Shown here piece after piece: positions 2,044-28,382 of a stretch of DNA of 61,622 nucleotides. Source of the stretch: Chloroflexota bacterium. Lineage in GTDB: Bacteria > Chloroflexota > UBA11872. Position numbers and translations under genes: made by a program. The notes beneath the pieces are model-generated. The model had not been told where the DNA came from. It did not search any database and was given only the letters and a program-made list of their open reading frames with translations. The first letter of the stretch is position 1. Every line of letters starts with the position of its first letter. The stretch is taken from contig JAPOXD010000015.1 in the NCBI GenBank assembly GCA_026707285.1, positions 1 to 61,622 on the forward strand, read 5' to 3'.

Positions 2044-4119
2044 ATGGGCGGCATCCTGCGCGGACGGCTGATTCTCCTGGTCCTGATTCTCGGCGTCGCC
2101 GCGGCGGCGTTCGCCTGCGGCGATACCGACGAGCCGCCGCCCGTCGAAACGATCGTCACCGTCACGGTCGAAGTCCCGGTCGAGGTCGAAAAGGTCGTCG
2201 AAGTCGAGAAGATCGTGGAAGTCGAGCGCATCGTCGAGGCCACCCCGACCCCGGCGCCGACCGAGGCCCCGGCCCCCACCGGTCCCGCCATCTACAAGAT
2301 GGGGCTGTTCGAGGACCCGATCTCGCGCAACGTATGGAACTACCTCGGCGGGCCTGCCGGGTCAGTCTGGACCGGTTACGTGATCGGCGGCTACGCCACC
2401 CAGCTCTACGGCTATTCGCCGCAGCGCTTCGACTGGGTCCCGGTGGCCGCAGACGGATTCCCGACGCCGCTGGCCCAGGAAACCATCGACGGAATCGAGT
2501 ATTGGACGACCGAGGTCTCGCTCAAGCAGGGCGTGACCTGGAGCGACGGCGAGGAATTGACGGCGGACGACTTCGTATTCACGGTCAACACCGTCATGGC
2601 CATGCAACTCGGCGGCAACTGGGCCCAACTGGTGGACTCCGCGTTCGTCGACCGGGCGGAAGCGCTCGACAGCCACCGGCTGAAGATCTATTTCAAGTCG
2701 ACCGACGCCGACGGGAATCCGCAGACGCCCGGCCTCAGCGTGTGGCAGTTCGGCCTGGCGTTCATGCCGATTCTCCCGGAGCACTACTGGGCGCCCGTGG
2801 TCGAGCAGGCCAAGCAAGCCGGCACCATGCCCCAGCAGATCGAGGCCCTGTTCGCGCACGTGCCCGATGGCGAGCCCACCGCCGGCGGTCTGGCCTTTCG
2901 CCAGTGGGAACCCGGCGCATTCTTCGAGAACGAGACCGTTCCGAGTCACTTCCAGATGGGCGCCGTCGTCACTGAGTTCGCCAACGGCGCCTACCGGGAG
3001 ACCAACGAACGGCTCGGCTACACCGAAGTGGCCTACGGCGACGCCACCGGCGACACCGTGCTGGAGCTCGAGGTCGGTCCGCATTTCGAGACCGAGATCT
3101 TCAGCATCTACGGCAACCAGGACTCGGCGATCCTCGCCCTGACCACGGGCGATATCGACTTCCTCTTCAACCCGCTGGGCTTGGAGAAGGGCTTCCTCGA
3201 CCGTGTCCGACAGGCGCCCGACCTGGAGGTCGTGACCAATCTCGACAACGGCGTCTTCTACCTGGGATTCAACACCCGCAAAGGCCCCATGGCCTTCAGG
3301 GAATTCCGGCAAGCCGTCGCGACCATGATCGACAAGGAATTCGTATCGCAGTCGATCCTCCAGGACGCGGCGATCCCCATGTACGCCATGGTTCCCGAGG
3401 GCAACGCCTTCTGGCACAACGACGCGACGTCCAAGATCGGCCAGGGGCTGAGCCTGGGCGAGCGGATCGCGCAGGCGGTCGAGTTGCTGAAGAGCGCCGG
3501 GTTCACCTACGAGCAGGAGCCGGAGGTCGGCGAGGACGGCGAGTTCGTGTCCTCACCCGGCCGTGGCCTGCGAATGCCCGACGGCTCGGAGATCCCACAG
3601 CTCGACTTGATCGCCCCCAGCGCCGGCTATGACCCCCTGCGGTCCACCTTCGCCATCTGGATCGAGCGCTGGCTCAACGACCTGGGCATTCCGGTTCGAG
3701 CGCAACTGGTCGGGTTCAACGTTCTCGTCGACCGGCTGTTCAGCGAGACCGTGGCCGAAGACCTCGACATGTGGATCCTGGGCTGGGGCTTCAGCATCTT
3801 CCCCAACTACCTGGAGAACATCTTCCACAGCCGCCACGCACCCGAGAACGAGGAGGGCGGCTACAACTGGGGCGGCTACGGCAACCCCGAATACGATGCC
3901 CTGGCCTTTGCCCTGCTGTCCGAGACCACCATCGAGGGCGCGCGGGAGTTGGTCTACCAGATGCAGGCGCTCCTCGCCGAAGACCTGCCGTACGTGACGC
4001 TCTTCACGACGCCGAAGGTGGACGTGTTTCGACCTTCGCGGGTGGAGTACCCCTACACCGAGGTGCTCGGCGGCATGGCGCAGCAACAGGGACTGCAACA
4101 CGTCGTGCTGATCAAGTAG
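2044..4119 (+). CDS. Peptide ABC transporter substrate-binding lipoprotein (family 5)
   Basis: Extracellular binding component of a dipeptide/oligopeptide importer. From ATG 2044 (GGCGGAG site 7 nt upstream) the protein has 691 residues: a signal peptide ending in the lipobox AFAC, a Val/Glu/Lys-rich linker, a Pro/Thr stretch, then an SBP_bac_5 domain. The domain shows the typical early motif VTWSDGEELTADDFVFTVNT and the late AEDLPYVTLF. It is longer than usual (about 550) because of the linker and extra loops. The linker style is frequent in Chloroflexota binding proteins. It heads the operon with two permeases and two ATPases. The ligand is unknown; family-5 proteins also bind sugars, nickel and opines. 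Confidence 0.92.
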   Translation: MGGILRGRLILLVLILGVAAAAFACGDTDEPPPVETIVTVTVEVPVEVEKVVEVEKIVEVERIVEATPTPAPTEAPAPTGPAIYKMGLFEDPISRNVWNYLGGPAGSVWTGYVIGGYATQLYGYSPQRFDWVPVAADGFPTPLAQETIDGIEYWTTEVSLKQGVTWSDGEELTADDFVFTVNTVMAMQLGGNWAQLVDSAFVDRAEALDSHRLKIYFKSTDADGNPQTPGLSVWQFGLAFMPILPEHYWAPVVEQAKQAGTMPQQIEALFAHVPDGEPTAGGLAFRQWEPGAFFENETVPSHFQMGAVVTEFANGAYRETNERLGYTEVAYGDATGDTVLELEVGPHFETEIFSIYGNQDSAILALTTGDIDFLFNPLGLEKGFLDRVRQAPDLEVVTNLDNGVFYLGFNTRKGPMAFREFRQAVATMIDKEFVSQSILQDAAIPMYAMVPEGNAFWHNDATSKIGQGLSLGERIAQAVELLKSAGFTYEQEPEVGEDGEFVSSPGRGLRMPDGSEIPQLDLIAPSAGYDPLRSTFAIWIERWLNDLGIPVRAQLVGFNVLVDRLFSETVAEDLDMWILGWGFSIFPNYLENIFHSRHAPENEEGGYNWGGYGNPEYDALAFALLSETTIEGARELVYQMQALLAEDLPYVTLFTTPKVDVFRPSRVEYPYTEVLGGMAQQQGLQHVVLIK

Positions 4120-12639: not shown

Positions 12640-13407
12640 ATGGCGGGGGCAATGGCCATCACCGGCGCCGGACGCGGCATCGGTCGAGCGATCGCGTTGC
12701 GCATGGCCCGCGAGGGCTGGGCCGTCGCGGTGTCCGATATCAATGGCGACAGCGCCGCCGCGGTAGCGGCCGAGATCGAGCAGACCGGCGTGCGCGCCCG
12801 CGGCGACGCGCTGGACGTCACCGACCCGGACGCGGTGGCGGCCTGGGTGAACGAGGTGGACGCCGACCTGGGCGGGCTCACCGGCGCGGTGGCAAACGCC
12901 GGCATCATCACCATCCGGCCGCTGCTGGAGGTTGCGCCCGAGGAATGGCGCCGGGTGATGGCCGTCAACCTGGACGGCGCGTTCTTCTTCTGTCAGGCCG
13001 CCGGACGGGTGATGGCGCCGCGCGGAAAGGGCAGCATCGTCATCATCTCCTCGGCCTCGTCCCGCCGCCCATCGCTCTGGCTGGGGCCGTACAGCACCAG
13101 CAAGACCGCGCTGCACGGGCTCACGCGCAACCTGGCCCTGGAGCTGAGCGAGCACCAGGTGCGCGTCAACGCCATCAGCCCCGGCCTCGTGGATACCGAC
13201 ATGTGGGAGAAGATCGACCGCGAGCGCGGCGGGCGCCAGGGTCGGAAAGCCGGCGAGGTGTTCGCCGAGATGATCAAGATGGTCCCCTTGGGCCGCGCGC
13301 AGGTGCCCGAGGACGTGGCCACCATCGCCGCCTTCCTGCTCTCCGAGGAAACCGAGTACATCACCGGGCAAAACATCAGCTACGACGGCGGCTTCCAGAT
13401 GCCCTGA
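12640..13407 (+). CDS. Short-chain dehydrogenase/reductase (SDR), FabG-like
   Basis: A 255-residue classical SDR. The cofactor motif is ITGAGRGIGRAIA, the structural motif is VANAGII, and the catalytic residues are in IISSASSRRPS (Ser) and YSTSK (Tyr and Lys). Asp after the second strand (VSDINGD) suggests NAD(H) preference. The C-terminal ITGQNISYDGGFQMP is typical. The substrate is unknown: 3-oxoacyl-ACP, sugar or acyloin reductases all share these motifs. An AGGGGGAA site precedes ATG 12640. It is a single-gene unit as far as can be seen. Confidence 0.88.
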   Translation: MAGAMAITGAGRGIGRAIALRMAREGWAVAVSDINGDSAAAVAAEIEQTGVRARGDALDVTDPDAVAAWVNEVDADLGGLTGAVANAGIITIRPLLEVAPEEWRRVMAVNLDGAFFFCQAAGRVMAPRGKGSIVIISSASSRRPSLWLGPYSTSKTALHGLTRNLALELSEHQVRVNAISPGLVDTDMWEKIDRERGGRQGRKAGEVFAEMIKMVPLGRAQVPEDVATIAAFLLSEETEYITGQNISYDGGFQMP

Positions 13408-13551
13408 GTCGGGTGCGCGCAGACGGCGATCGCTCGGACATGGCTCCTCGCGCGGTACCGCGACCCAGGCGCCGCCGTCCGACAGCCGCAGCGCGGTGCT
13501 CGGCGCGGCGTCAAACTCACCAGAAGATTCCCCGGAAACAGAAGGTGCCGT

Positions 13552-13560
13552 TGCTATACT
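13552..13560 (+). promoter_or_regulatory. Extended -10 promoter (TGCTATACT) for the S1 gene
   Basis: TGC TATACT forms an extended -10 box 49 nt before the TTG start at 13610. No -35 is visible, as is common for extended -10 promoters. The rest of the 202-bp gap after the SDR gene shows no gene. Confidence 0.55.
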
Positions 13561-13609
13561 CGGGTCCCAGACGACTTTTCTTCGATTCCGAAGTAATAGA
13601 GGTGCTCGC

Positions 13610-14782
13610 TTGACCACAACCGACGACGCGCCGGCCGCCGGCGCCGTCGCGGAGACCATGCCGCCGGACGAAATGCCGGCGCTTGAGTCCATGGAAGCCC
13701 TGCTGGAAGAGGCAACCGCGCAGTTGCCGAGCATCGGCCGCGGCGATGTCCTCGAGGGGGTCGTCGTCGGCATCGAGCCCGACGAGATCCTGGTGGACAT
13801 CGGCCTCAAGGCCGAGGGCTTCGTGCCCGAGCGTGAGCAGTGGGACAACCGGCTCGAGGAGCCCCGTCCGACCTATTCGCTTGGTGAAACGGTGCTCGTC
13901 TACGTGGTGCAGCCGGAGGGCGACGGGCGCGCCATGCTCTCCTTCCGCCGCGCCGAGCAGGAGAAGGTCTGGCGCGCCACCGAGGAGCTCTTCGAAAAGG
14001 GCGAAATCATCGACGCGACCATTCTCGAATACAACAAGGGCGGCGTGCTGGTGGACGTGGGGCCGCGCGGCTTCGTGCCGCTGTCGCAGCTCACCAGCTT
14101 GCGGCGCGGTGCCAGCGACGAGACCGAAGACGAGTTGGCCGCGCGGCTGGCGGAGCTTGTGGGCCGCAAGATCAACGTCAAGATCATCGAGCTCGACCGT
14201 CGCCGCAATCGCCTGATCCTCTCCGAGCGCGTCGCCGAGCGCGAGGTCCGCTCGCGCCGCCGCGAGGTGCTGTTGGACGAGTTACAGGTCGGGCAGGTGC
14301 GGCAGGGCATCGTGAGCAACATCTGCAGCTTTGGCGCCTTCGTCGACCTGGGCGGCGCGGACGGTCTGGCTCACATCTCCGAGCTCTCCTGGAGCCGGGT
14401 CGAAAGCCCCGAGGAGATTCTGAAGCCGGGCCAGGAGATCGAGGTCTACGTGCTGTCCCTCGACCGCGAGGACAAGAAGATCGCCCTCAGCCTGCGCCGC
14501 GCGACCAAGGACCCGTGGCAGTCGCTGGAGTCCAAGTACGGCGTCAACGAAATCGTCGAGGGCGAGGTGACCAAGCTGGCGCCGTTTGGGGCCTTCGTGC
14601 GGCTCACCGACGGCATCGAAGGGCTGGCCCACGCCTCCGATCTCGGCGACGCGGCGCTGGATTCGATGCGCGAGGGCGACTTCGGCAAGTTCCAGATCCT
14701 GAGCATCGACGCCGGCCGGCGGCGAATCCGGTTGTCTCCCTTACCCACCGAGGTCGCCGATAGTGCGACAATGGAGGCGTAG
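13610..14782 (+). CDS. rpsA: 30S ribosomal protein S1, four S1 domains
   Basis: A 390-residue RNA-binding protein with four S1 OB-fold repeats, at about residues 44-112, 130-207, 225-293 and 310-375. Repeats 3 and 4 are best conserved (ICSFGAFVDLGGADGLAHIS and LAPFGAFVRLTDGIEGLAHA). Four-domain S1 proteins are usual outside the Proteobacteria, where six are found. It aids mRNA binding to the ribosome. Start: TTG 13610 with AGAGGTG upstream; the longer frame from 13496 covers the promoter and is rejected. The N-terminal 40 residues are acidic and probably disordered. Confidence 0.88.
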   Translation: MTTTDDAPAAGAVAETMPPDEMPALESMEALLEEATAQLPSIGRGDVLEGVVVGIEPDEILVDIGLKAEGFVPEREQWDNRLEEPRPTYSLGETVLVYVVQPEGDGRAMLSFRRAEQEKVWRATEELFEKGEIIDATILEYNKGGVLVDVGPRGFVPLSQLTSLRRGASDETEDELAARLAELVGRKINVKIIELDRRRNRLILSERVAEREVRSRRREVLLDELQVGQVRQGIVSNICSFGAFVDLGGADGLAHISELSWSRVESPEEILKPGQEIEVYVLSLDREDKKIALSLRRATKDPWQSLESKYGVNEIVEGEVTKLAPFGAFVRLTDGIEGLAHASDLGDAALDSMREGDFGKFQILSIDAGRRRIRLSPLPTEVADSATMEA

Positions 14783-14827
14783 GCCACCGCCCACGGCTGA
14801 TACCGGGGCCGCTGCAGGGGATGTCAG

Positions 14828-17287
<2,460 letters not shown>

Positions 17288-17396
17288 TCGGGCCGTGCGC
17301 CGCAACGGCGCGTTACCGCCTGTCAAACCGTCCCGCAGGAGCCCCGTGAAACCCTTGCGCAGCCTCTCCAATGGGGATTGGGGGGCAGGTCCGGTC

Positions 17397-17432
17397 CCCT
17401 CTCCCTTGATGGGAGAGGGCTAGGGTGAGGGT
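17397..17432. repeat. Hairpin repeat CCCTCTCCC-N5-GGGAGAGGG plus TAGGGTGAGGGT
   Basis: A perfect 9-bp stem (17397-17405 and 17411-17419) is followed by TAGGGTGAGGGT. The preceding GGCAGGTCCGGT is also shared with the copy at 23290. It fills most of the clpC-radA gap. It could act as a transcription terminator structure but lacks a T-tract. Confidence 0.75.
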
Positions 17433-17482
17433 CATTCGGAACTTGCACGCGCGGTGTCAACCAATACCGCCAAGGCCCCCCG

Positions 17483-18817
17483 ATGGCTAAGCCCCGCGCC
17501 AGCTTCATCTGCGAGGACTGCGGCGCGCGCCACCAGCAGTGGAGCGGCCAGTGCGGCGCCTGCGGCGCCTGGAACAGCATCATCGAGCACCGCCCGCCGC
17601 GCGCGGCGGCGTCTTCGGCCTCGGTCGCCGCCGTGCCGCTTGGCGCCGTCGAGGACGATGCCGCGGTGCGGCGCTCCACCGGCCTGAGCGAGTTTGATCG
17701 CGTGCTCGGCGGTGGCCTGGTTGACGGCGCGCTGATTCTCATCGGCGGCGACCCCGGCATCGGCAAGTCCACCCTCGTGCTGCGCGCCGCCGCCGCATTG
17801 GGGACCGACCGCCGCCCCGTGCTCTACGTCGCGGCGGAGGAGTCGCCCCAGCAGGTCCGCATGCGCGCGCGGCGTATGGGCTTGGAGTCCAGCGCCATTC
17901 ATGTGTATCCCGACACCGAGGTCGGCGGCGCTCTGGCCGAGGCCGAGCGGCTGCGCGCCGGACTCGTCGTCGTCGACTCGATTCAAACGGTGCGCGTCGA
18001 GGGCCTGGCCGCGGCCCCCGGCAGTGTCAGCCAGGTGCGCGAGGCCACGGTCCAGATCATGCAGTTCGCCAGGGCGTCCCAAACGCCCGTGATGCTGGTG
18101 GGACACGTCACCAAGGAAGGCACGGTGGCGGGGCCGCGCACCCTGGAACACATCGTGGACACGGTGCTCTACCTCGAGGGCGACGACTTCCACGCCCAGC
18201 GCCTGCTGCGATCGGTGAAGAACCGCTTCGGCCCGACGTTCGAGGTGGCGGTGTTCGAAATGCGCGGCGACGGCCTGCACGAGGTGCCCAATCCCTCCGC
18301 GCTCTTCCTGGCCGAGCGCGACGCCCGCGCGCCGGGCTCGGCGGTGGCCGTGCCGCTGGAAGGCACCCGACCGCTGGTGGTCGAGATCCAGGCGCTGACG
18401 GCGCCGACCGCCTACGCGCTGCCCAAGCGCCTCGCGACGGGATTCGACCTCAACCGCCTGCACATGTTGCTGGCGGTGCTGGGCCGCCGCGCCGGCGTCA
18501 AGCTTGGCCAGCACGACGTCTACGTCAACGTCGTCGGCGGCTTGCGGCTGCGTGAGCCCGCGGTTGACCTGGCCGTGGCGGTGGCCATCGCGTCCAGCGC
18601 GCGCGACCAGGCGCCCGGGCCGCAGGTCGCGGCGATCGGGGAGCTGGGGCTTTCCGGCGAGCTGCGTTCGGTGCCCTCGGCCGCGGTGCGCGTGCGCGAG
18701 GCCGAGCGGCTGGGCTTCACTCGCTGCCTGGTGCCGACCGCCAGCGCCCGCAACGGCGCGACCGAAGGGCTTGGGGCCGCGAATCTGGCGGAGGCCCTGG
18801 CCCTCGCATTGCCATGA
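17483..18817 (+). CDS. radA: DNA repair protein RadA (Sms)
   Basis: A 444-residue ATPase for branch migration in recombination. The N-terminal zinc finger has CEDCG and CGACG, the RecA-like core has Walker A GGDPGIGKSTL, and the RadA-specific motif KNRFG is present. The Lon-like C-terminal domain includes VYVNVVGGLRLREPAVDLAV. Length is normal. It is the first gene of a compact run with ispD (ATGA overlap), an Fpr-like gene and ispF. Confidence 0.94.
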   Translation: MAKPRASFICEDCGARHQQWSGQCGACGAWNSIIEHRPPRAAASSASVAAVPLGAVEDDAAVRRSTGLSEFDRVLGGGLVDGALILIGGDPGIGKSTLVLRAAAALGTDRRPVLYVAAEESPQQVRMRARRMGLESSAIHVYPDTEVGGALAEAERLRAGLVVVDSIQTVRVEGLAAAPGSVSQVREATVQIMQFARASQTPVMLVGHVTKEGTVAGPRTLEHIVDTVLYLEGDDFHAQRLLRSVKNRFGPTFEVAVFEMRGDGLHEVPNPSALFLAERDARAPGSAVAVPLEGTRPLVVEIQALTAPTAYALPKRLATGFDLNRLHMLLAVLGRRAGVKLGQHDVYVNVVGGLRLREPAVDLAVAVAIASSARDQAPGPQVAAIGELGLSGELRSVPSAAVRVREAERLGFTRCLVPTASARNGATEGLGAANLAEALALALP

Positions 18818-19548
18818 CCGCGGGCCTCGTGGACGCCGTGGTGCTGGCCGCGGGCGGCGCAACCCGCATGGGCGGCGAGGACAAGCTGTTGACGCCCCTG
18901 GGCGACGCGCCCTTGATCGTCTGGAGCCTGCGCGCCTTCGAGCAGGCGCCCGAAGTCCGCCATGTGGTGGTGACCGCCAGCCCGGCCAACCGCGACCAAA
19001 TCGCCGATGTCATTCACGCGGCGCGCCTGACCAAGGTGACGCGCGTGATTCTGGGCGGCACGTCCCGCGCCGGGTCGGTCCTTTGCGGACTTGAAGCGCT
19101 CGCCGACGGTGGCGCGGCGTTCGCCGCCATTCACGACGGCGCCCGCCCGTTCGTGACCCCCGGCATCATCGCGCGCGGCGTCCAGGCGGCGCACGCGCAC
19201 GGCGCGGCGGTGGCCGCCGTGCCGTCCGTCGACACCGTCAAGCTCGTCACGCCCGCGGGCCGGGTCAGCCGCACGCTGCCACGCGAGCAGGTGTGGCTGG
19301 CCCAGACGCCCCAGATCGGCCCGCTGGACGCCTTGCTCGAGGCCCACCGGCGCAATCGGGACCGTTTGGCCGACTTCACCGACGACGTGGCCCTGCTGGA
19401 GCACGAGGGCGTGCCGGTGCACGTCTTCGAGTCCGACGCCGGCAACGTCAAGATCACTCGCCCGGCAGACTTGCAGGCGGCACGAGTCCGGGTCGCGTCG
19501 ATGCCCGGCTATCCTGACGCCATGACCGAACCTGACACTCAACAGTGA
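18814..19548 (+). CDS. ispD: 2-C-methyl-D-erythritol 4-phosphate cytidylyltransferase
   Basis: Third enzyme of the MEP isoprenoid pathway: MEP + CTP to CDP-ME. The 244-residue protein has the nucleotide-binding LAAGGATRMGGEDK at the N-terminus (the family AAGxGxRMG with catalytic Arg and Lys), IHDGARPFVTP in the middle, and LAQTPQI. The last 25 residues extend past the family end. It overlaps radA at ATGA and its own stop shares one base with the next gene. Confidence 0.93.
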   Translation: MTAGLVDAVVLAAGGATRMGGEDKLLTPLGDAPLIVWSLRAFEQAPEVRHVVVTASPANRDQIADVIHAARLTKVTRVILGGTSRAGSVLCGLEALADGGAAFAAIHDGARPFVTPGIIARGVQAAHAHGAAVAAVPSVDTVKLVTPAGRVSRTLPREQVWLAQTPQIGPLDALLEAHRRNRDRLADFTDDVALLEHEGVPVHVFESDAGNVKITRPADLQAARVRVASMPGYPDAMTEPDTQQ

Positions 19549-20465
19549 TGGCTGACGCCAAGCAAGCCCCGGCCCCCGCCCCACGCCGGCGACGCCGCGA
19601 CATTCGCGAGCGCATGGAAAGCGCGCGGCTGGCGTCCTGGGAGCTGCTCGAAGACCCCGATATCGCCATCTTCACCATCGAGCGCCCCGACGGCGAGCCG
19701 TTCGCCGAATTCGAGCCCGGCCAATACACCCAGCTCGCCTTTTGGGACCAGCCCGCGGACGACCCCCGCCCGCGTCAGTTCTCCATCGCGTCGACGCCTT
19801 CCGACCGCACGTCGCTCGAGTTCTACGTCATCCTGGTGCGCGACGCGGACGAGGACGGCAGCAACCGACAGGGCGTCTTCACCGGCGCGCTCTGGCGTCA
19901 TGCGCCCGGCGACGAGGTGCTCTACATGCCGCGCCCGGCCGGACGCTTCGTGCCCTCGCGGACCTCGCAGCACGACCTGGTGTGCGCCGCCACCGGCACG
20001 GGGCTGGCGCCGTTCGTCTCGATGGCCCGCGTGTTCCGGCAGGACTTTCAGCGCGACGGCCGCTTGCCGCGGCGCCTCACGGTGCTGCACGGCGTGTCCT
20101 ACGCCAGCCAGCTCGGCTACCGCGCCGAGCTGGAGGAGCTGGCCTCCCATGCGGGGTTCGAGTTGCTCTACGTACCCGTCGTCAGCCGGCCCACCCAAGA
20201 CCCCGGATACGAGGAGCCCATGGGCCGCGGACGGCTGAACGACGTCTTGCGCATGATCTGCGGCGAGCCCGCCATCGGCCGCGTGGAGCCTTGGCTGCCC
20301 ACCGAGGTCCACGACGAGGTGCGTGCGCGGCTCTCGGTCGCCGGCAGCGCGGCTTATCTGTGCGGCAATCCGGGCATGATCAGCGACGTGAAAGAGGTGC
20401 TCGCCGCCGAGGGCTTTCCCACTACGGGCCGCGAGTCGCAGGTCATCACGGAGGACTACTGGTAG
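19548..20465 (+). CDS. FAD/NAD(P)-binding ferredoxin reductase-like protein (Fpr type)
   Basis: A 305-residue flavin reductase. The FAD domain has PRQFSIASTP (a variant of RxYS), the NAD(P) domain has CAATGTGLAPFVSM, and YLCGNPGMISDV gives the conserved CGxPxM. It ends in DYW; the C-terminal aromatic residue stacks on FAD in bacterial ferredoxin-NADP reductases. An Arg-rich N-terminal tail is unusual. It sits between ispD and ispF with one-base overlap, so it may supply electrons to the Fe-S enzymes IspG/IspH; that is an inference. ATG 19548 is preferred over GTG 19545. Confidence 0.82.
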   Translation: MADAKQAPAPAPRRRRRDIRERMESARLASWELLEDPDIAIFTIERPDGEPFAEFEPGQYTQLAFWDQPADDPRPRQFSIASTPSDRTSLEFYVILVRDADEDGSNRQGVFTGALWRHAPGDEVLYMPRPAGRFVPSRTSQHDLVCAATGTGLAPFVSMARVFRQDFQRDGRLPRRLTVLHGVSYASQLGYRAELEELASHAGFELLYVPVVSRPTQDPGYEEPMGRGRLNDVLRMICGEPAIGRVEPWLPTEVHDEVRARLSVAGSAAYLCGNPGMISDVKEVLAAEGFPTTGRESQVITEDYW

Positions 20466-22414: not shown

Positions 22415-23142
22415 CCGGAGCCATCTGGGGCCGTCACCCCGTCCGCGAAGCCCTCACCGCCGGCTACCAACTGACCCGCCTGATGGTCGCCCGCGGCGCC
22501 GCCGAGTCCACGGCTCCCCTGCGCGAAATGGCAGGCAATGCCGGCGTGCCGGTGGCTTTCGTTGACACGGCCGAGTTGGACGCCCAGTCCTTCGGCGGCA
22601 ATCACCAGGGCGTCGTCGCCGCCATGGAGTCAACTCCGAACCCCAGCCTGAGCGACCTGCTGCAACCCCACCCGGGACGCACCCAACCGCCGCTGATCCT
22701 GGCCGCCGACCAGGTCGAGGATGTTGGCAACTTAGGCTCGCTGGTCCGCACGCTCGAAGCCTGCGGCGGCGCCGGCGTGATCGTGCCGCAACGTCGCAGC
22801 GCGTCGCTCACCGGCGGACTCGCCCGCGCCTCCGCCGGAGCGAGCCTGCGCACGACCGTGGTCAACGTGACCAACCTCGCGCGGGCGCTCAAATCCCTCC
22901 AGTCGGACGGCGTGCGCGTCATCGGCCTCGACGCCGACGCCGAGACGCCGTTCGACGACCTGGCGTTCGACGCGCCATGCTGCATCGTCGTGGGCAACGA
23001 GGCGCGTGGGATGCGGCCAAGCGTGCGGGAAGCGTGCGACGCCATCGTACGAGTGCCCCTGCGCAGCGGCATCGGCTCGCTCAACGTCGCCGCCGCCGGC
23101 GCCATCGTCCTGCACCACATCGCCCGCCAACGAACAGGGTGA
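22306..23142 (+). CDS. TrmH/SpoU-family RNA 2'-O-methyltransferase (RlmB-like)
   Basis: A SPOUT methyltransferase predicted to modify 23S rRNA G2251 or a similar site. The substrate-binding N-domain begins at IWGRHPVREALTAG. The SpoU motifs are LAADQVEDVGNLGSLVRTLE, CCIVVGNEARGM, and LRSGIGSLNVAAAGAIV. The start is uncertain: the only ATG upstream of the domain is 22306, which overlaps cysS by 109 bp, and its first 36 residues are Arg/Pro-rich and look non-coding. CTG 22384 is an alternative. The domain itself begins at about 22423. Confidence 0.85.
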   Translation: MGARRSHPRPPGGSRRRPGRRPRRHDLAPQGADRPVAGAIWGRHPVREALTAGYQLTRLMVARGAAESTAPLREMAGNAGVPVAFVDTAELDAQSFGGNHQGVVAAMESTPNPSLSDLLQPHPGRTQPPLILAADQVEDVGNLGSLVRTLEACGGAGVIVPQRRSASLTGGLARASAGASLRTTVVNVTNLARALKSLQSDGVRVIGLDADAETPFDDLAFDAPCCIVVGNEARGMRPSVREACDAIVRVPLRSGIGSLNVAAAGAIVLHHIARQRTG

Positions 23143-23210
23143 CCCGTGCGCAATCGTCACGCCCGCGTCCGATCCGCTCTCCCCCTGAGAGACCTCTGCG
23201 CATCCCCTCC

Positions 23211-23236
23211 GTCATTCCGGCGAAAGCCGGAATCCA
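23211..23236. repeat. Intergenic palindromic repeat GTCATTCCGGCGAAAGCCGG
   Basis: ATTCCGGC-GAAA-GCCGGAAT forms a perfect stem with a GNRA tetraloop and is followed by CCA. A variant with GGCG in place of the loop occurs at 40286. Such elements are widespread in intergenic spaces of many bacteria. Confidence 0.75.
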
Positions 23237-23289
23237 GTGCGGTCGAAACCGGAAGCGAGCCGGATGCCTGGCGTCGGGCAGGTCCGGTT

Positions 23290-23325
23290 CCCTCTCCCTT
23301 CGAGGGAGAGGGTTAGGGTGAGGGT
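23290..23325. repeat. Hairpin repeat CCCTCTCCC-N5-GGGAGAGGG plus TTAGGGTGAGGGT
   Basis: A 9-bp perfect stem (23290-23298 and 23304-23312) and the TTAGGGTGAGGGT tail, as at 17397. The preceding GCAGGTCCGGT is shared with that copy. It ends 19 bp before folB. Confidence 0.75.
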
Positions 23326-23343
23326 CTACGAAGGCGGAAATCC

Positions 23344-23715
23344 ATGAGCGCCGACGTCATTAGCCTCGAGGGCATGATCTTCTTCGCCTATCACGGCGCC
23401 CGCGCCGAGGAGCGCACCCTGGGTCAACGGTTCGTGGTGGACATGGACGTCCACGCCGACCTGCGCGCCGCCGGGCAATCCGACGGCGTGAGCGACACCG
23501 TGAACTACAGCGAGCTTTACGCCGTCGCCCAGGACGTGTTGCACGGCCCGCCGCGCAATCTGCTGGAATCCCTCGGCGAAACCATCGCCGCGCGCGTCCT
23601 GGCCGAGTTTCCGCGCGTCACCCGCGTGCGCGTGCGCATCGCCAAGCCCAGCGTCGCCATCGCCGGCTCCATTCTCGCCGAAGCCGCCGTCACCATCGAC
23701 CGCGCGCGGGAGTAG
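23344..23715 (+). CDS. folB: Dihydroneopterin aldolase
   Basis: Folate-pathway enzyme producing 6-hydroxymethyl-dihydropterin. The 123-residue protein starts VISLEGMIFFAYHGARAEER (pterin-binding Tyr-His-Gly and Glu), has VNYSELYAVAQDVL and NLLESLGETIAARVL, and carries the catalytic Lys in RVRIAKPSVAIAGSI. Size is normal. Its last 126 bp have a second copy at 25355-25480, beyond the LRR gene. Confidence 0.93.
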   Translation: MSADVISLEGMIFFAYHGARAEERTLGQRFVVDMDVHADLRAAGQSDGVSDTVNYSELYAVAQDVLHGPPRNLLESLGETIAARVLAEFPRVTRVRVRIAKPSVAIAGSILAEAAVTIDRARE

Positions 23716-23729
23716 ACGGCGTCACGCCG
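23713..23729. terminator. Tight palindrome at the folB stop (terminator-like, no T-tract)
   Basis: GACGGCGT-C-ACGCCGTC is a perfect 8-bp inverted repeat with a one-base centre, overlapping the last bases of folB. It lacks a following T-run, so termination is unproven. The second folB 3' copy at 25480 does not have it. Confidence 0.3.
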
Positions 23730-23848
23730 TCGCCGACACGAAGTCGTCCTTAAAGGCCCGTGCACAGGGAACGATTCTGCCGGACCGCGCGTAGTATCCA
23801 GTAGGAGTGTCAGGCAGCCGAGGCTATGCGCCCCCGGGAGGCAGACCC

Positions 23849-25312
23849 TTGAGCGTCCGGCGTTCGACGTGGCGCACGTTCGTGGTCTTGCTGGTTGCCT
23901 TCGCTCTCCTGCTCGCACTCGGAGCGGCCACGTGCGACGCGCCGATCGACGCGCCTGCGACCACGGACCCAGCCCCGACGACAGCGACCAGCGACCCATC
24001 CCCAACAGCCGCCCCGGTACGTGCCCAGCCCAGGGCCGCACTTCCGCCCGCCTCGCCAGCACCGACTCGAAGAGCTGTCACGCCCGTCGCGCCCACGCCC
24101 ACCGCCGCGCCCTCATCCGCCGTCGCGATCGATCGGGCCGCGCTCGTCGCGTTCTACCACGCGACCGGGGGCCCGACGTGGGAGTTCAACGCCAACTGGC
24201 TGAGCGACGCGCCGCTCGGCCAGTGGCACGGCGTTGTGACCGACGCGAGCGGCCAGGTCATCGAGTTGAGGCTCTTCAACAACGGGGTGCGGGGGGAGCT
24301 CCCGCCGGAAGTGGGCAACCTTGCCAAGCTGCGCGTGCTCGAACTCCGAGCCAATCAGCTCCATGGCGAGATCACCGCCGCACTGAGCAACCTGATCCTG
24401 TTGCAGGAGCTCTGGCTCGACAACAACCAGCTGCAGGGTGAGATCCCGCCCGAGCTGGGCAACTTTGACAACCTGCGCGTGCTCCAACTTCAAGGAAACC
24501 GGCTGAGTGGCGAAATCCCCGCCGCGCTGGGAAACCTCCTCCAGTTGGAAGAGCTGTGGCTCGACTTCAACCAGTTGCAGGGCAAGATCCCGCCCCAGAT
24601 GGGCAACCTTGCCAACCTCCGCCAACTGGTCCTGAGCGCCAATCAACTTCACGGACCGATTCCCCCGGACCTCGGCCGTCTTGGCCGGCTACAGGCGTTG
24701 AGTCTTGCGAGGAACAAGTTGAGCGGAGCAATTCCCCCGGAGTTGGGCAACCTCTCCCAGCTGCGGTCGTTGACGCTCGCGAGCAACCAGTTGCAGGGAA
24801 CGATCCCGCCCGAACTGGGAAATCTCTCCCAACTGCAAGCGCTGTGGCTCGACCACAACCAGCTGCACGGCATGTTTCCAGCCACGCTGCTGGGCCTCAC
24901 AAACCTGCGGGAATTGGACCTCAGCAACAACCGGTTCGGCGGCGAGATTCCAGCCGAGCTGAGCCGCCTCGCCAACCTCGACAGGCTGGATCTGGCCTAC
25001 AACCAGTTCAGCGGAATGATCCCACCCGAGGTAGGCAACCTTGGCAACCTCTACTGGCTGAGCTTGGCCGGCAATCGGCTCAGCGGGGTCATCCCGGCCG
25101 CTCTGGGCGAACTCGCCAAGCTGCGCTCGCTGGATCTCAGCAACAATCAGCTCGCCGGCGAGTTTCCAACCGCGCTGACCCGACTCGCCAACCTAGGCTG
25201 GTTGAGCCTCGCCCGTGGCAACCAACTCGAGGGCTGCATCCCCAAGGCGTTGCAAAGCGTCGAGACCAATGATCTCCACGAACTCGGCCTGCCGTTCTGC
25301 GAGGCCGGTTGA
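23849..25312 (+). CDS. Leucine-rich repeat protein, plant-type repeats, exported
   Basis: A 487-residue surface or secreted protein. A hydrophobic signal segment (TFVVLLVAFALLLALGAATC) is followed by a Thr/Pro-rich linker of about 90 residues. Next comes an N-terminal cap (LVAFYHATGGPTWEFNANWL) and 14 tandem 24-residue repeats of the plant-specific type with the IPPELGNL pattern. A C-terminal cap ends LGLPFCEAG. The cap-repeat-cap design is known in bacterial LRR proteins, including those of host-associated lineages, and suggests protein binding. Start: TTG 23849 has GGGAGG 7 nt upstream; GTG 23807 is the alternative, with TAGTAT 9 nt before it. The gene is flanked by two copies of the folB 3' end. 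Confidence 0.88.
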   Translation: MSVRRSTWRTFVVLLVAFALLLALGAATCDAPIDAPATTDPAPTTATSDPSPTAAPVRAQPRAALPPASPAPTRRAVTPVAPTPTAAPSSAVAIDRAALVAFYHATGGPTWEFNANWLSDAPLGQWHGVVTDASGQVIELRLFNNGVRGELPPEVGNLAKLRVLELRANQLHGEITAALSNLILLQELWLDNNQLQGEIPPELGNFDNLRVLQLQGNRLSGEIPAALGNLLQLEELWLDFNQLQGKIPPQMGNLANLRQLVLSANQLHGPIPPDLGRLGRLQALSLARNKLSGAIPPELGNLSQLRSLTLASNQLQGTIPPELGNLSQLQALWLDHNQLHGMFPATLLGLTNLRELDLSNNRFGGEIPAELSRLANLDRLDLAYNQFSGMIPPEVGNLGNLYWLSLAGNRLSGVIPAALGELAKLRSLDLSNNQLAGEFPTALTRLANLGWLSLARGNQLEGCIPKALQSVETNDLHELGLPFCEAG

Positions 25313-25351
25313 CTCCGCCTTAACATAGGGAGGCGTGCCATTGCGCTGCTC

Positions 25352-25480
25352 ATGGCGCGTGCCCTGGCCGAGTTCCCCCGCGTCACCCGCGTGCGCGTGC
25401 GCATCGCCAAGCCAAGCGTCGCCATCGCCGGCTCCATCCTCGCCGAAGCCGCCGTCACCATCGACCGCGCGCGGGAGTAA
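25352..25480 (+). pseudogene. Duplicated 3' end of folB (42-codon fragment)
   Basis: From 25355 to 25480 the DNA matches folB 23590-23715 at 119 of 126 positions. Five of the seven changes are synonymous codon differences, one is Val to Ala, and one changes the stop from TAG to TAA. The frame is open from ATG 25352 and encodes only the C-terminal strand with the IAKPSVAIAGS motif, too little for activity. The synonymous pattern suggests that both copies were once under coding selection, so this may be a different folB allele and not a recent copy. Confidence 0.85.
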
Positions 25481-25510
25481 GCCACGAAGGGTTAGGGCGC
25501 CGAGCCTCCT

Positions 25511-25562
25511 CGCTCCTCCCCCGGCGCTCGTCGAACTCGCGCACCATCACGTTGCCCAGCCC
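25511..25562 (-). pseudogene. Duplicated 3' end of the family-1 solute-binding protein gene
   Basis: This stretch matches 26644-26693, inside the 3' end of the solute-binding protein gene, over about 50 bp with one small indel and few mismatches. The minus-strand translation LGNVMVREFDERR corresponds to LGNVMLREFDERR in the intact protein. It lies 30 bp from the folB fragment, facing it. The methyltransferase gene lies between the fragment and the intact gene. The remaining bases of the 287-bp gap (25313-25599) hold no gene. Confidence 0.75.
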
Positions 25563-25599
25563 CTACGCGGCGGCGCGTTGGGCCGCCCGCCCGAAACGA

Positions 25600-26475
25600 C
25601 TATCCCTGCTGCCTGGTCAGCACCGCCAGCGAGTAGTCGCTGCCCTGGTAATCGCCGCGGGACGGCATGGCAATGATCTCGAGCGACCACTGCCCCGGCC
25701 GTTCCGCCAGGAACTCGGCCACGGCCTTGCGCGTGCCGTGAAGCCGGTAGGTGACCAGCGCGTACTCGTTGCCTGCGCCGAAGCGCGCCACGTGCTTGCT
25801 CATCCTCGGCCACGCGATCTCGCATACACGCCGCAGGCGCTGGGCGAAGGCGGTGATCAGTCGCGAGGGGATCCGCACCACGGTCGAGCCGAGGTGATAG
25901 TCGTCAACCACGATCGCCCCGTTCTCATCCATCAGCGACTCGAGCTGCGTCAGCTCGCGCTTCACGTCCGCATAGGCGTGGCTGCCGTCCAGGAACGCCA
26001 AGTTGATCGGGCCCTGATCCCATTTCTTCAGGACATCGGCCGACCGCCCGGTGATTGGCGTAATCCCGCCGCCCTCCTGGAACCACTTCGCCCAGATCTC
26101 GGCCCGAGTGACCGTGGCGCCCGCCAACGGGTCATCGGCCTCGTGCTTTACCGCGTGCCAATTGAGTGATTCCTGGTGATCGATGATGTCCACCGTATGC
26201 ACATGCCCAGCGATTCCCGCATCTTCCATAGCTCGCGCCATCGTCATCGCCGAGAACCCGCGCGCCGTGCCAATATCCAGGACGACAACCGGACGGCTGG
26301 CATTCGCATAACGTTGAACTAACTTATAGAGAAGCAGGCCATGTTCTCCGCCGTCTCCACCTCTGAGAACTTTGGCCGCGTGCGCATACCATTCGGCGGA
26401 AAGATCCGCCGAATCCACTTCATCGAGCTTCTGCTCGAGCGGCGTAACCGTGGCGCCCGTCTGGACAATTGTCAC
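25600..26475 (-). CDS. Class I SAM-dependent methyltransferase (Methyltransf_24 type)
   Basis: A 291-residue protein with a Rossmann methyltransferase domain. VVVLDIGTARGFSAMTMARA is motif I (SAM binding), HVHTVDIID carries the acidic residue after strand 2, and INLAFLDGSHAYADVKREL with AIVVDDYHLG are the usual later motifs of the family often found in glycan or small-molecule biosynthesis. There is no signal peptide. The C-terminal 80 residues are unrelated to anything recognised. It lies downstream of the solute-binding protein gene on the same strand, with a 146-bp gap, and is flanked by duplicates of that gene's end. The substrate is unknown. Confidence 0.8.
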   Translation of the reverse strand: MTIVQTGATVTPLEQKLDEVDSADLSAEWYAHAAKVLRGGDGGEHGLLLYKLVQRYANASRPVVVLDIGTARGFSAMTMARAMEDAGIAGHVHTVDIIDHQESLNWHAVKHEADDPLAGATVTRAEIWAKWFQEGGGITPITGRSADVLKKWDQGPINLAFLDGSHAYADVKRELTQLESLMDENGAIVVDDYHLGSTVVRIPSRLITAFAQRLRRVCEIAWPRMSKHVARFGAGNEYALVTYRLHGTRKAVAEFLAERPGQWSLEIIAMPSRGDYQGSDYSLAVLTRQQG

Positions 26476-26621
26476 TCGCGCACCTCATGTCGAGAGGCCG
26501 TCAACTGATGGCATGCCTCGCTGTCGCGCCATCATACGTGGCGTCTGCCGGACGGCTGTTGGCGGCGTGACTCGCCGCGCTCACGGGTTCTGTTCCGCGG
26601 CGCCGCCGATCGCGCGTCGGC

Positions 26622-28184
26622 CTAAGGAGCCCTGCCGCTGCGCCGCTCCTGCTCCCGGCGCTCGTCGAACTCGCGCAACATCACGTTGCCCAGCGAGGGG
26701 GGCCGGCGGTAGCCCGAAACATCCTTCGCCACCGACCACTCATGCGCCTCCAGCTGGCGGGTGATGAGCTGGTCGGCCTGCTCGAGATACGCCTCGACCT
26801 CGACGACGCCGCGGCGTACGGCTTCGATCGGGACTCCGGTCAACACGTGCCACGCCTTCGATCCAGGATTCGAGGGCGTCTGCAAGTCGTGCGCAACGGC
26901 GCCGCTCCAGGCGGTGCGGTCCGCGGGCAGGCGGTTGGGGTCGCGAAAGGCCGGCTCGCGCAGCACCGAGCGGCGAAACGGGACGGCGGCGCCGGTGCGC
27001 GCCAGCGCCCGCTGAGCCTCGGGCTCCAGGAAGAACTGGGCCAGCCGCCAGGCCGGCTCGAGCTCTTCGCTGGCGCTGTTGACGCCAACGCAAATCTCCA
27101 CCCCTTCCGTCACCGGGAATCCGTCCGTCCACGCGGGCAGCGGCGCCACGCCCCACGGGATCATCGGCCGCACTAACGGTGAGAAGTCGCTGGCATCGAC
27201 ATACAGCGCCACCTGCCCGCCGTTGAACGGCGTCCCAAAGCGCTCCTCGATGCCAAGCTCAATCTGTGATTGGCTCCGCCAGCGCGCCATGCGCTCCAAC
27301 GTGCGCGCGTGCACGGCCGACTGCATCGTGGATCGAGTCTGATCGGGAGCAAAGAACGCGTCCGCCCCGCCAAGCCCTGCCGCACTGGCCATCGCGGCGC
27401 GCGTCACCCATGGCACGGCGGCGAGGCCATAGCGATCCACGCGGTCGTCATCCGCCACCGTGAGGCGTCGCGCCGCGAACTCGAACTCGGCGATCGACCA
27501 GGAATCGTCCCAGCTCGACGGCGGCTCGACCCCAGCCGACGCCAGGTGGGCCTCGTTGTAGAACACGCCGAGGTAGGCCGCGCCGATGCTGAGGGCGGCT
27601 ATCTCCCCGCCCGGTCCGGTCCGCGCCTCAATCGCAGCCGGCGCAAGGTCGTCCAGTACCACCTCGCGCGCCACGAACTCGTCCAGTGGCGCCAGATAGC
27701 CGCCAGCCGTCAGGTCGAACACGTCGTCCGCCGCAAGCCGGACCACGTCCGCGTCGATGCCGTCGACCAGCCCAGCGCGCATGCCCTCCCCCGCCAGGGC
27801 GTTGTCCAGGCGCACGTCGAGTTCGACCTCGGGTTGGGCCTGCTCGAAGGCCGCCAGCGCCTGGCGCAGCGCGTCCAGCTCGGCGGGCGTGCCCCAGCCG
27901 GCGAATCGGATCGTCGTGCCGGCCGGAAGCGGCGTGGCTTCGGCCGCGGCGAGGGTCGTAGGCGCGGACGGCGTCGGGCTCGGAGTCGGCGTATACCGCG
28001 GCACGCTGACCACTTCGACCGGGAGCGGAGTCAGCGGCGGCAGTTCCGTGTCCGCGGGACCCAAGTCGCATCCCGTGATCCCAGCCGCCACGGCTAGCGG
28101 CAAGGCGCGCAAGATGGCGCGCCGCGAACAGCGGGCGGCGGTGCGCGGGCGTCGAGGGCCCGGTGATAGGGATGGGTTGGCCAC
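26622..28184 (-). CDS. Extracellular solute-binding lipoprotein, family 1 (sugar type)
   Basis: A 520-residue periplasmic or surface binding protein. The N-terminus has a twin-arginine-like SRRAILRAL and a lipobox AGITGC, then a Pro/Thr-rich linker. The SBP_bac_1 fold follows: TIRFAGWGTPAELDALRQAL, VLRLDN-type second lobe, LSIGAAYLGVFYNEAHL and WRLAQFFLEPEAQRALA. No permease or ATPase gene is near, so it must use components encoded elsewhere. The start is GTG 28184. This start and its leader are duplicated exactly in the tandem repeat just upstream. Confidence 0.86.
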   Translation of the reverse strand: MANPSLSPGPRRPRTAARCSRRAILRALPLAVAAGITGCDLGPADTELPPLTPLPVEVVSVPRYTPTPSPTPSAPTTLAAAEATPLPAGTTIRFAGWGTPAELDALRQALAAFEQAQPEVELDVRLDNALAGEGMRAGLVDGIDADVVRLAADDVFDLTAGGYLAPLDEFVAREVVLDDLAPAAIEARTGPGGEIAALSIGAAYLGVFYNEAHLASAGVEPPSSWDDSWSIAEFEFAARRLTVADDDRVDRYGLAAVPWVTRAAMASAAGLGGADAFFAPDQTRSTMQSAVHARTLERMARWRSQSQIELGIEERFGTPFNGGQVALYVDASDFSPLVRPMIPWGVAPLPAWTDGFPVTEGVEICVGVNSASEELEPAWRLAQFFLEPEAQRALARTGAAVPFRRSVLREPAFRDPNRLPADRTAWSGAVAHDLQTPSNPGSKAWHVLTGVPIEAVRRGVVEVEAYLEQADQLITRQLEAHEWSVAKDVSGYRRPPSLGNVMLREFDERREQERRSGRAP

Positions 28185-28330
28185 GTGCTGGAAGCCTTGG
28201 GGCCGCCCGACAGGCGAAGGCGCGCCGCGAACAGCGGGCGGCGGTGCGCGGGCGTCGAGGGCCCGGTGATAGGGATGGGTTGGCCACGTGCTGGAAGCCT
28301 TGGGGCCGCCCGACAGGCGAAGGCGCGCCG
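28116..28330. repeat. Perfect 103-bp tandem duplication over the solute-binding protein start
   Basis: Copies at 28116-28218 and 28219-28321 are identical, and a third copy begins but breaks off after about 9 bp (28322-28330). The unit contains the GTG start and the first 23 codons of the minus-strand solute-binding protein gene. The outer copy thus carries a second GTG at 28287 that reads out of frame, because 103 is not a multiple of three. The rest of the 28331-28590 gap holds promoter-like sequence only. Confidence 0.92.
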
Positions 28331-28382
28331 CTGCTTGAGATCAGGGACCGCCCGACGTGCGCCAGACCTAGCGCCCTCAGGC

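Follow-up and report, generated by a model that had tools for sequence, protein, structure and literature searches.

Displaced gene ends suggest repeated exchange and stacking of LRR genes between folB and a convergent SBP gene in a putatively sponge-associated Chloroflexota genus

The best reading of the sequences analyzed here is that LRR genes located between folB and a convergent gene for an extracellular solute-binding protein (SBP) may have been repeatedly exchanged and stacked in a putatively sponge-associated genus of Chloroflexota. The window, the whole stretch of 61,622 nucleotides that was analyzed (contig JAPOXD010000015.1 of assembly GCA_026707285.1), contains an extra folB 3' end beyond an LRR gene. 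This extra end is most likely the leftover of an end-to-end join and would need no special insertion site. On balance, we lean toward an explanation in which entire locus alleles (folB-LRR-SBP) of sibling-lineage origin became linked end to end, with the older folB end left behind.

The folB gene of the window, which encodes dihydroneopterin aldolase, is an intact working gene (23344 to 23715, + strand) with a match to the Pfam FolB profile (E = 2e-33) and 93 to 96% amino acid identity to folB in five genus-mates. A search against the whole 3.2-Mb genome found that its 3' end (23590 to 23715, + strand) recurs on the same strand at 25355 to 25480, with 95% identity over 125 nt (E about 1e-52), and these two copies are the only places in the genome with the folB tail. 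The displaced copy is referred to below as a scar, as are similar neighbor-gene ends in relatives. Seven mismatches separate the two tails: five synonymous codons, one exchange of stop for stop, and one non-synonymous change (from working gene to scar, CGC>CGT, GTC>GCC [V>A], TTT>TTC, CCG>CCC, CCC>CCA, ATT>ATC, and TAG>TAA). A re-check of the sequence confirmed the coordinates, strand, and mismatch count of the repeat given in an earlier sequence-only reading, as well as the LRR open reading frame (ORF) between the copies (23807 to 25312, + strand). An in-frame ATG at 25352 and the stop codon of the scar open a 42-amino-acid ORF (25352 to 25480) with a FolB-like ending, whose translation is hypothetical. 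A dispersed repeat family is present upstream of folB at 23142 to 23343, where the contigs of two relatives (G001 and G003) stop, within 90 bp upstream of the gene.

The spacer between folB and the LRR gene (23716 to 23806, + strand) is 77 to 81% conserved with V-type units of a related species (G002), in which the LRR gene of the window, also V-type, has its ortholog. The predicted LRR protein has 501 amino acids, an N-terminal hydrophobic segment, and about 13 repeats. Between this gene and the scar is a short stretch of spacer and SBP gene 3' end (25315 to 25354, - strand) that is an 80% match to positions 3155 to 3194 of the G003 locus (E = 1e-5). The 40 to 43 bp just before the folB tail copy correspond to a G003-like LRR-end/SBP-end region, in which the SBP stop would be at 25325, 13 bp past the LRR stop at 25312, as at most boundaries between LRR genes and SBP in the genus. 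A second SBP 3' end follows the scar (25493 to 25560, - strand). The repeat within the window pairs 25511 to 25560 with 26644 to 26694, at the 3' end of the SBP gene that faces folB (94% over the best 51 nt), and queries from relatives extend the former to 25493 to 25560, with 86 to 88% identity to the SBP ends of G001 and G005. Next is a methyltransferase gene (Methyltransf_24; 25600 to 26475, - strand), whose sole occurrence among 41 genomes of the class is in the window: it was absent from the 40 other genomes, and neither the class nor viral contigs yielded a source for it. The intact SBP gene faces folB at 26622 to 28184 (- strand). Because SBP-end repeats are on both sides of the folB copy, the order in the window is folB, LRR gene, SBP-end piece, folB end, SBP end, methyltransferase gene, and SBP gene. 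The two SBP-end pieces and the unique methyltransferase gene behind them were not part of the sequence-only reading. A 116-nt tandem repeat (99% identity) is located at the SBP gene 5' end (28113 to 28331). A sigma-70 promoter scan of 23100 to 26800 yielded no candidates.

The same locus was compared in the six genomes of the genus (G000, which is the window genome, and G001 to G005), which represent one genome per species and are all draft assemblies. We presume that two of the genomes, whose public records are titled as MAGs of Chloroflexota, come from sponges, an assumption that is our reading of the isolate name RHO3 and not a tool result. All six genomes have one or more LRR genes between folB and SBP. 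In a sister genus (g2), folB is present in thirteen genomes, with neither an LRR gene nor SBP behind it. The suggestion that the LRR gene had arrived as a single insertion into an empty site is not borne out, because all relatives in the genus already carry LRR genes there. Nor did the six genomes include an LRR-free relative in which folB is joined directly to the sequence from 25480 onward.

Scars derived from folB or SBP ends are present between LRR units in four of the six genomes, and those from folB are found in G000, G002, G003, and G005; G001 and G004 have a single LRR gene and no scar. The layout in G003 is LRR, SBP end, folB end, LRR. Between its units, G002 carries a folB end of 88 nt and an SBP end. 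G005 has a folB end (34 nt) plus an SBP end, and its first unit lacks the usual LRR 3' end and SBP end. The head-to-tail join of flanks, SBP end and then folB end, occurs in both G000 and G003. In G003 the junction is on a 7-nt sequence, CCCAGCG, that is common to both genes; no microhomology is evident at the junction in the window. In intact loci the LRR stop is about 13 bp before the SBP stop. The scars of G003, G005, and the window preserve this distance, and those of G002 nearly do, so the scarred LRR genes once directly adjoined SBP. The folB tail scars are 126, 88, 70, and 34 nt long, with breakpoints at codon 83 and at about codons 95, 102, and 113 in the four species. This inconstant crossover position, and the fact that both flanking genes leave scars, contradict the idea that the folB tail is a fixed insertion site. 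In G002 the B-type LRR unit consists of two overlapping ORFs (12978 to 16340 and 16241 to 19756 of the joined locus L055/L066) that are probably one frameshifted gene.

These scars are not a general property of LRR loci. None of 20 other LRR loci, six in the window genome and 14 in G002 to G005, had a comparable tail scar. It is the locus that is special, not LRR genes as such. Furthermore, folB was the only gene with an end duplicated in this way in 737 kb that was scanned (615 ORFs, 23% of the genome). The possibility that the folB tail is a dispersed repeat was rejected, as the other gene-end repeats in that scan were intergenic repeat families or were not end duplications. A weak repeat (73%) just behind an LRR gene of G003 (locus L135, 8895 to 9007 and 10028 to 10140) was likewise rejected as a gene-end scar; it looks like an old duplicate of the start of a neighboring methyltransferase-like coding region.

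Orthology of the LRR units between species crosses positions in the arrays. The V-type gene is behind the working folB in G000 and behind the scar in G002 (leader, 85%; 90% DNA identity over 1.6 kb that includes the upstream folB tail). Similarly, the A-type gene is behind the working folB in G003 and behind the scar in G005 (88%), and the B-type leader is behind the working folB in G004 and behind the scar in G003 (87% over 447 nt). Three adjacent substitutions, CGAAGG, are common to the G003 scar and the working folB of G004, both of which precede that B-type leader. The other working genes and the scars of G000 and G005 have CGCGCG at this site, except for CGCGCA in the working gene of G005, and the G002 scar has CGAACG.

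The substitutions in the scars also bear on their age. The scar in the window lacks TTT, CCG, and ATT, three changes that are private to the working folB of G000. Using the genus consensus as a stand-in for the ancestor, scar changes in codons 83 to 120, pooled over three species, were 9 synonymous versus 3 non-synonymous (P = 0.0017 against 30% synonymous expected). The working folB genes in the same comparison had 17 synonymous versus 2 non-synonymous changes. The scar changes are mostly synonymous; therefore, the tails seem to have been the ends of working genes for most of their history, and both this bias and the missing private changes support the sequence-only reading on this point. Such short scars (34 to 126 nt) yield small counts, and a working gene shares one of the scar changes. 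As an alternative, constraint at the DNA level might act on the folB end: codons 98 to 118 (23635 to 23697) contain 1 synonymous-variable codon over six species, which places this segment among the lowest in seven genes. Of 1712 windows, 31 are equally low in synonymous variation, mostly within or close to the cysS/rlmB overlap, and the evidence for such constraint is suggestive but not decisive.

Most simply, the distal tail would be the resident end, and the working end would have come with an incoming allele. The earlier proposal that the distal copy may be the ancestral end thus stands as far as an older, displaced end is concerned; the direction of the replacement is what we infer. A whole allele, consisting of folB end, LRR gene, and SBP end, would arrive from a sibling lineage, use homology at folB to pair on one side, and join on the other side via short or no homology, beside the resident allele. 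The recipient would retain a complete folB bearing the incoming end, and the resident folB end would be displaced downstream as a scar with the incoming SBP-end piece in front of it. With spacers as short as about 90 bp and 13 bp, a segment that includes a whole LRR gene must have its ends within the neighbors, which is why their tails would be carried along. The window would then represent folB, the V-type LRR gene, the incoming SBP-end piece, the old folB end, a position between 25480 and 25493 from which the expected resident LRR gene would have been lost, the SBP end, the methyltransferase gene, and SBP. The methyltransferase gene could reflect a seeming mirror event anchored on SBP, with the displaced SBP end on its far side. 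Two alleles joined end to end would explain why an SBP-end piece precedes the folB end, why the anchor gene is intact, and why the breakpoints vary. Among the genomes compared, one per species, no strain pair shows the states before and after such a join, and similar patterns could also result from an ancient duplication that later underwent gene conversion. Overall, the interpretation in the sequence-only reading was partly supported.

The main rival explanation, which we consider possible but appreciably less probable, is that an ancient tandem duplication of the segment from folB end through LRR to SBP end took place in the genus ancestor via a microhomology junction and was followed by divergence, partial gene conversion, and loss, with no need for transfer. 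The scar order of SBP end and then folB end fits a head-to-tail copy, as does the CCCAGCG shared by both sides of the G003 junction. However, leaders within one array are unrelated or just 72 to 83% identical, versus 85 to 88% for orthologs across species. The array units are heterogeneous rather than recent duplicates, and units of one array do not resemble each other more than they resemble units of other species. Neutral decay of the scars would also be expected, yet their changes are mostly synonymous, and the junction positions vary between species.

Another explanation, which we regard as improbable, is that the tails are standing recombination sites, at which recombination between the folB end and a scar removes or exchanges the LRR unit adjoining folB and restores a whole folB each time. 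For example, the B-type LRR gene, which follows the scar in G003, is directly preceded in G004 by a folB with the scar-type end (CGAAGG). However, with one genome per species G004 is equally well explained by allele stacking, under which it would have kept the state from before stacking; the reverse history, in which a unit was lost by tail-to-tail recombination, may also apply. A broader proposal combines the two: the repeated folB and SBP ends could serve as standing crossover sites with which a population keeps switching the putatively secreted LRR gene behind folB, by allele stacking plus tail-to-tail recombination and without a dedicated recombinase. We consider this proposal unlikely.

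A mobile element that integrates site-specifically at the 3' end of folB, with an attachment site that regenerates this end, would explain a complete host gene end beside the cargo and a second end beyond it, but is very improbable: the tail lengths vary, SBP ends are duplicated too, the only ORFs seen between folB and SBP are the LRR and methyltransferase genes, with no integrase or recombinase, and searches of phage records and viral contigs returned no match. Least credible of all is an assembly or binning chimera of two strains. It would suit a draft metagenome-type assembly with a tail copy as divergent as the folB of another species, but comparable scars recur in three more independent genomes, of which two consist of rather few contigs.

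LRR proteins of sponge-symbiont Chloroflexi have been discussed as possible mediators of host contact (PMC6306507), a function that is putative here. If the ends of the neighboring genes preserve a record of replacements at this locus, they would provide a readable history of LRR gene gain and swap without mobile elements, and a duplicated gene end need not signal an attachment site.

The layout of the locus resembles the model of sequential displacement described for Vibrio cholerae, in which type VI secretion system (T6SS) effector-immunity arrays grow by successive insertion of modules and the old 3' end is shifted downstream (Kirchberger et al. 2017, PMC5361080). Homology-facilitated illegitimate recombination was proposed for those arrays in the same study (PMC5361080). 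The features in common are a new module beside a conserved gene, heterogeneous arrays, the lack of an integrase, and a displaced anchor-gene 3' end beyond the new module, represented here by the folB ends in four genomes. Microhomology-mediated tandem duplication or amplification also joins the end of one flank to the end of the other, but here the array copies are not near-identical and the scars bear synonymous changes of their own. Integrative elements with attachment sites in gene 3' ends similarly restore a gene end beside the cargo and duplicate it distally; the present locus differs in its variable junctions, the involvement of both flanking genes, and the lack of an integrase. Integron cassette arrays are comparable in that units are seemingly added at one end, but no integrase or attC-like site was seen at this locus, and the scars are pieces of neighboring genes. 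What differs from the Vibrio T6SS arrays is that the cargo consists of LRR genes without an immunity partner and that the displaced ends belong to two unrelated, non-module neighbors, folB and SBP.
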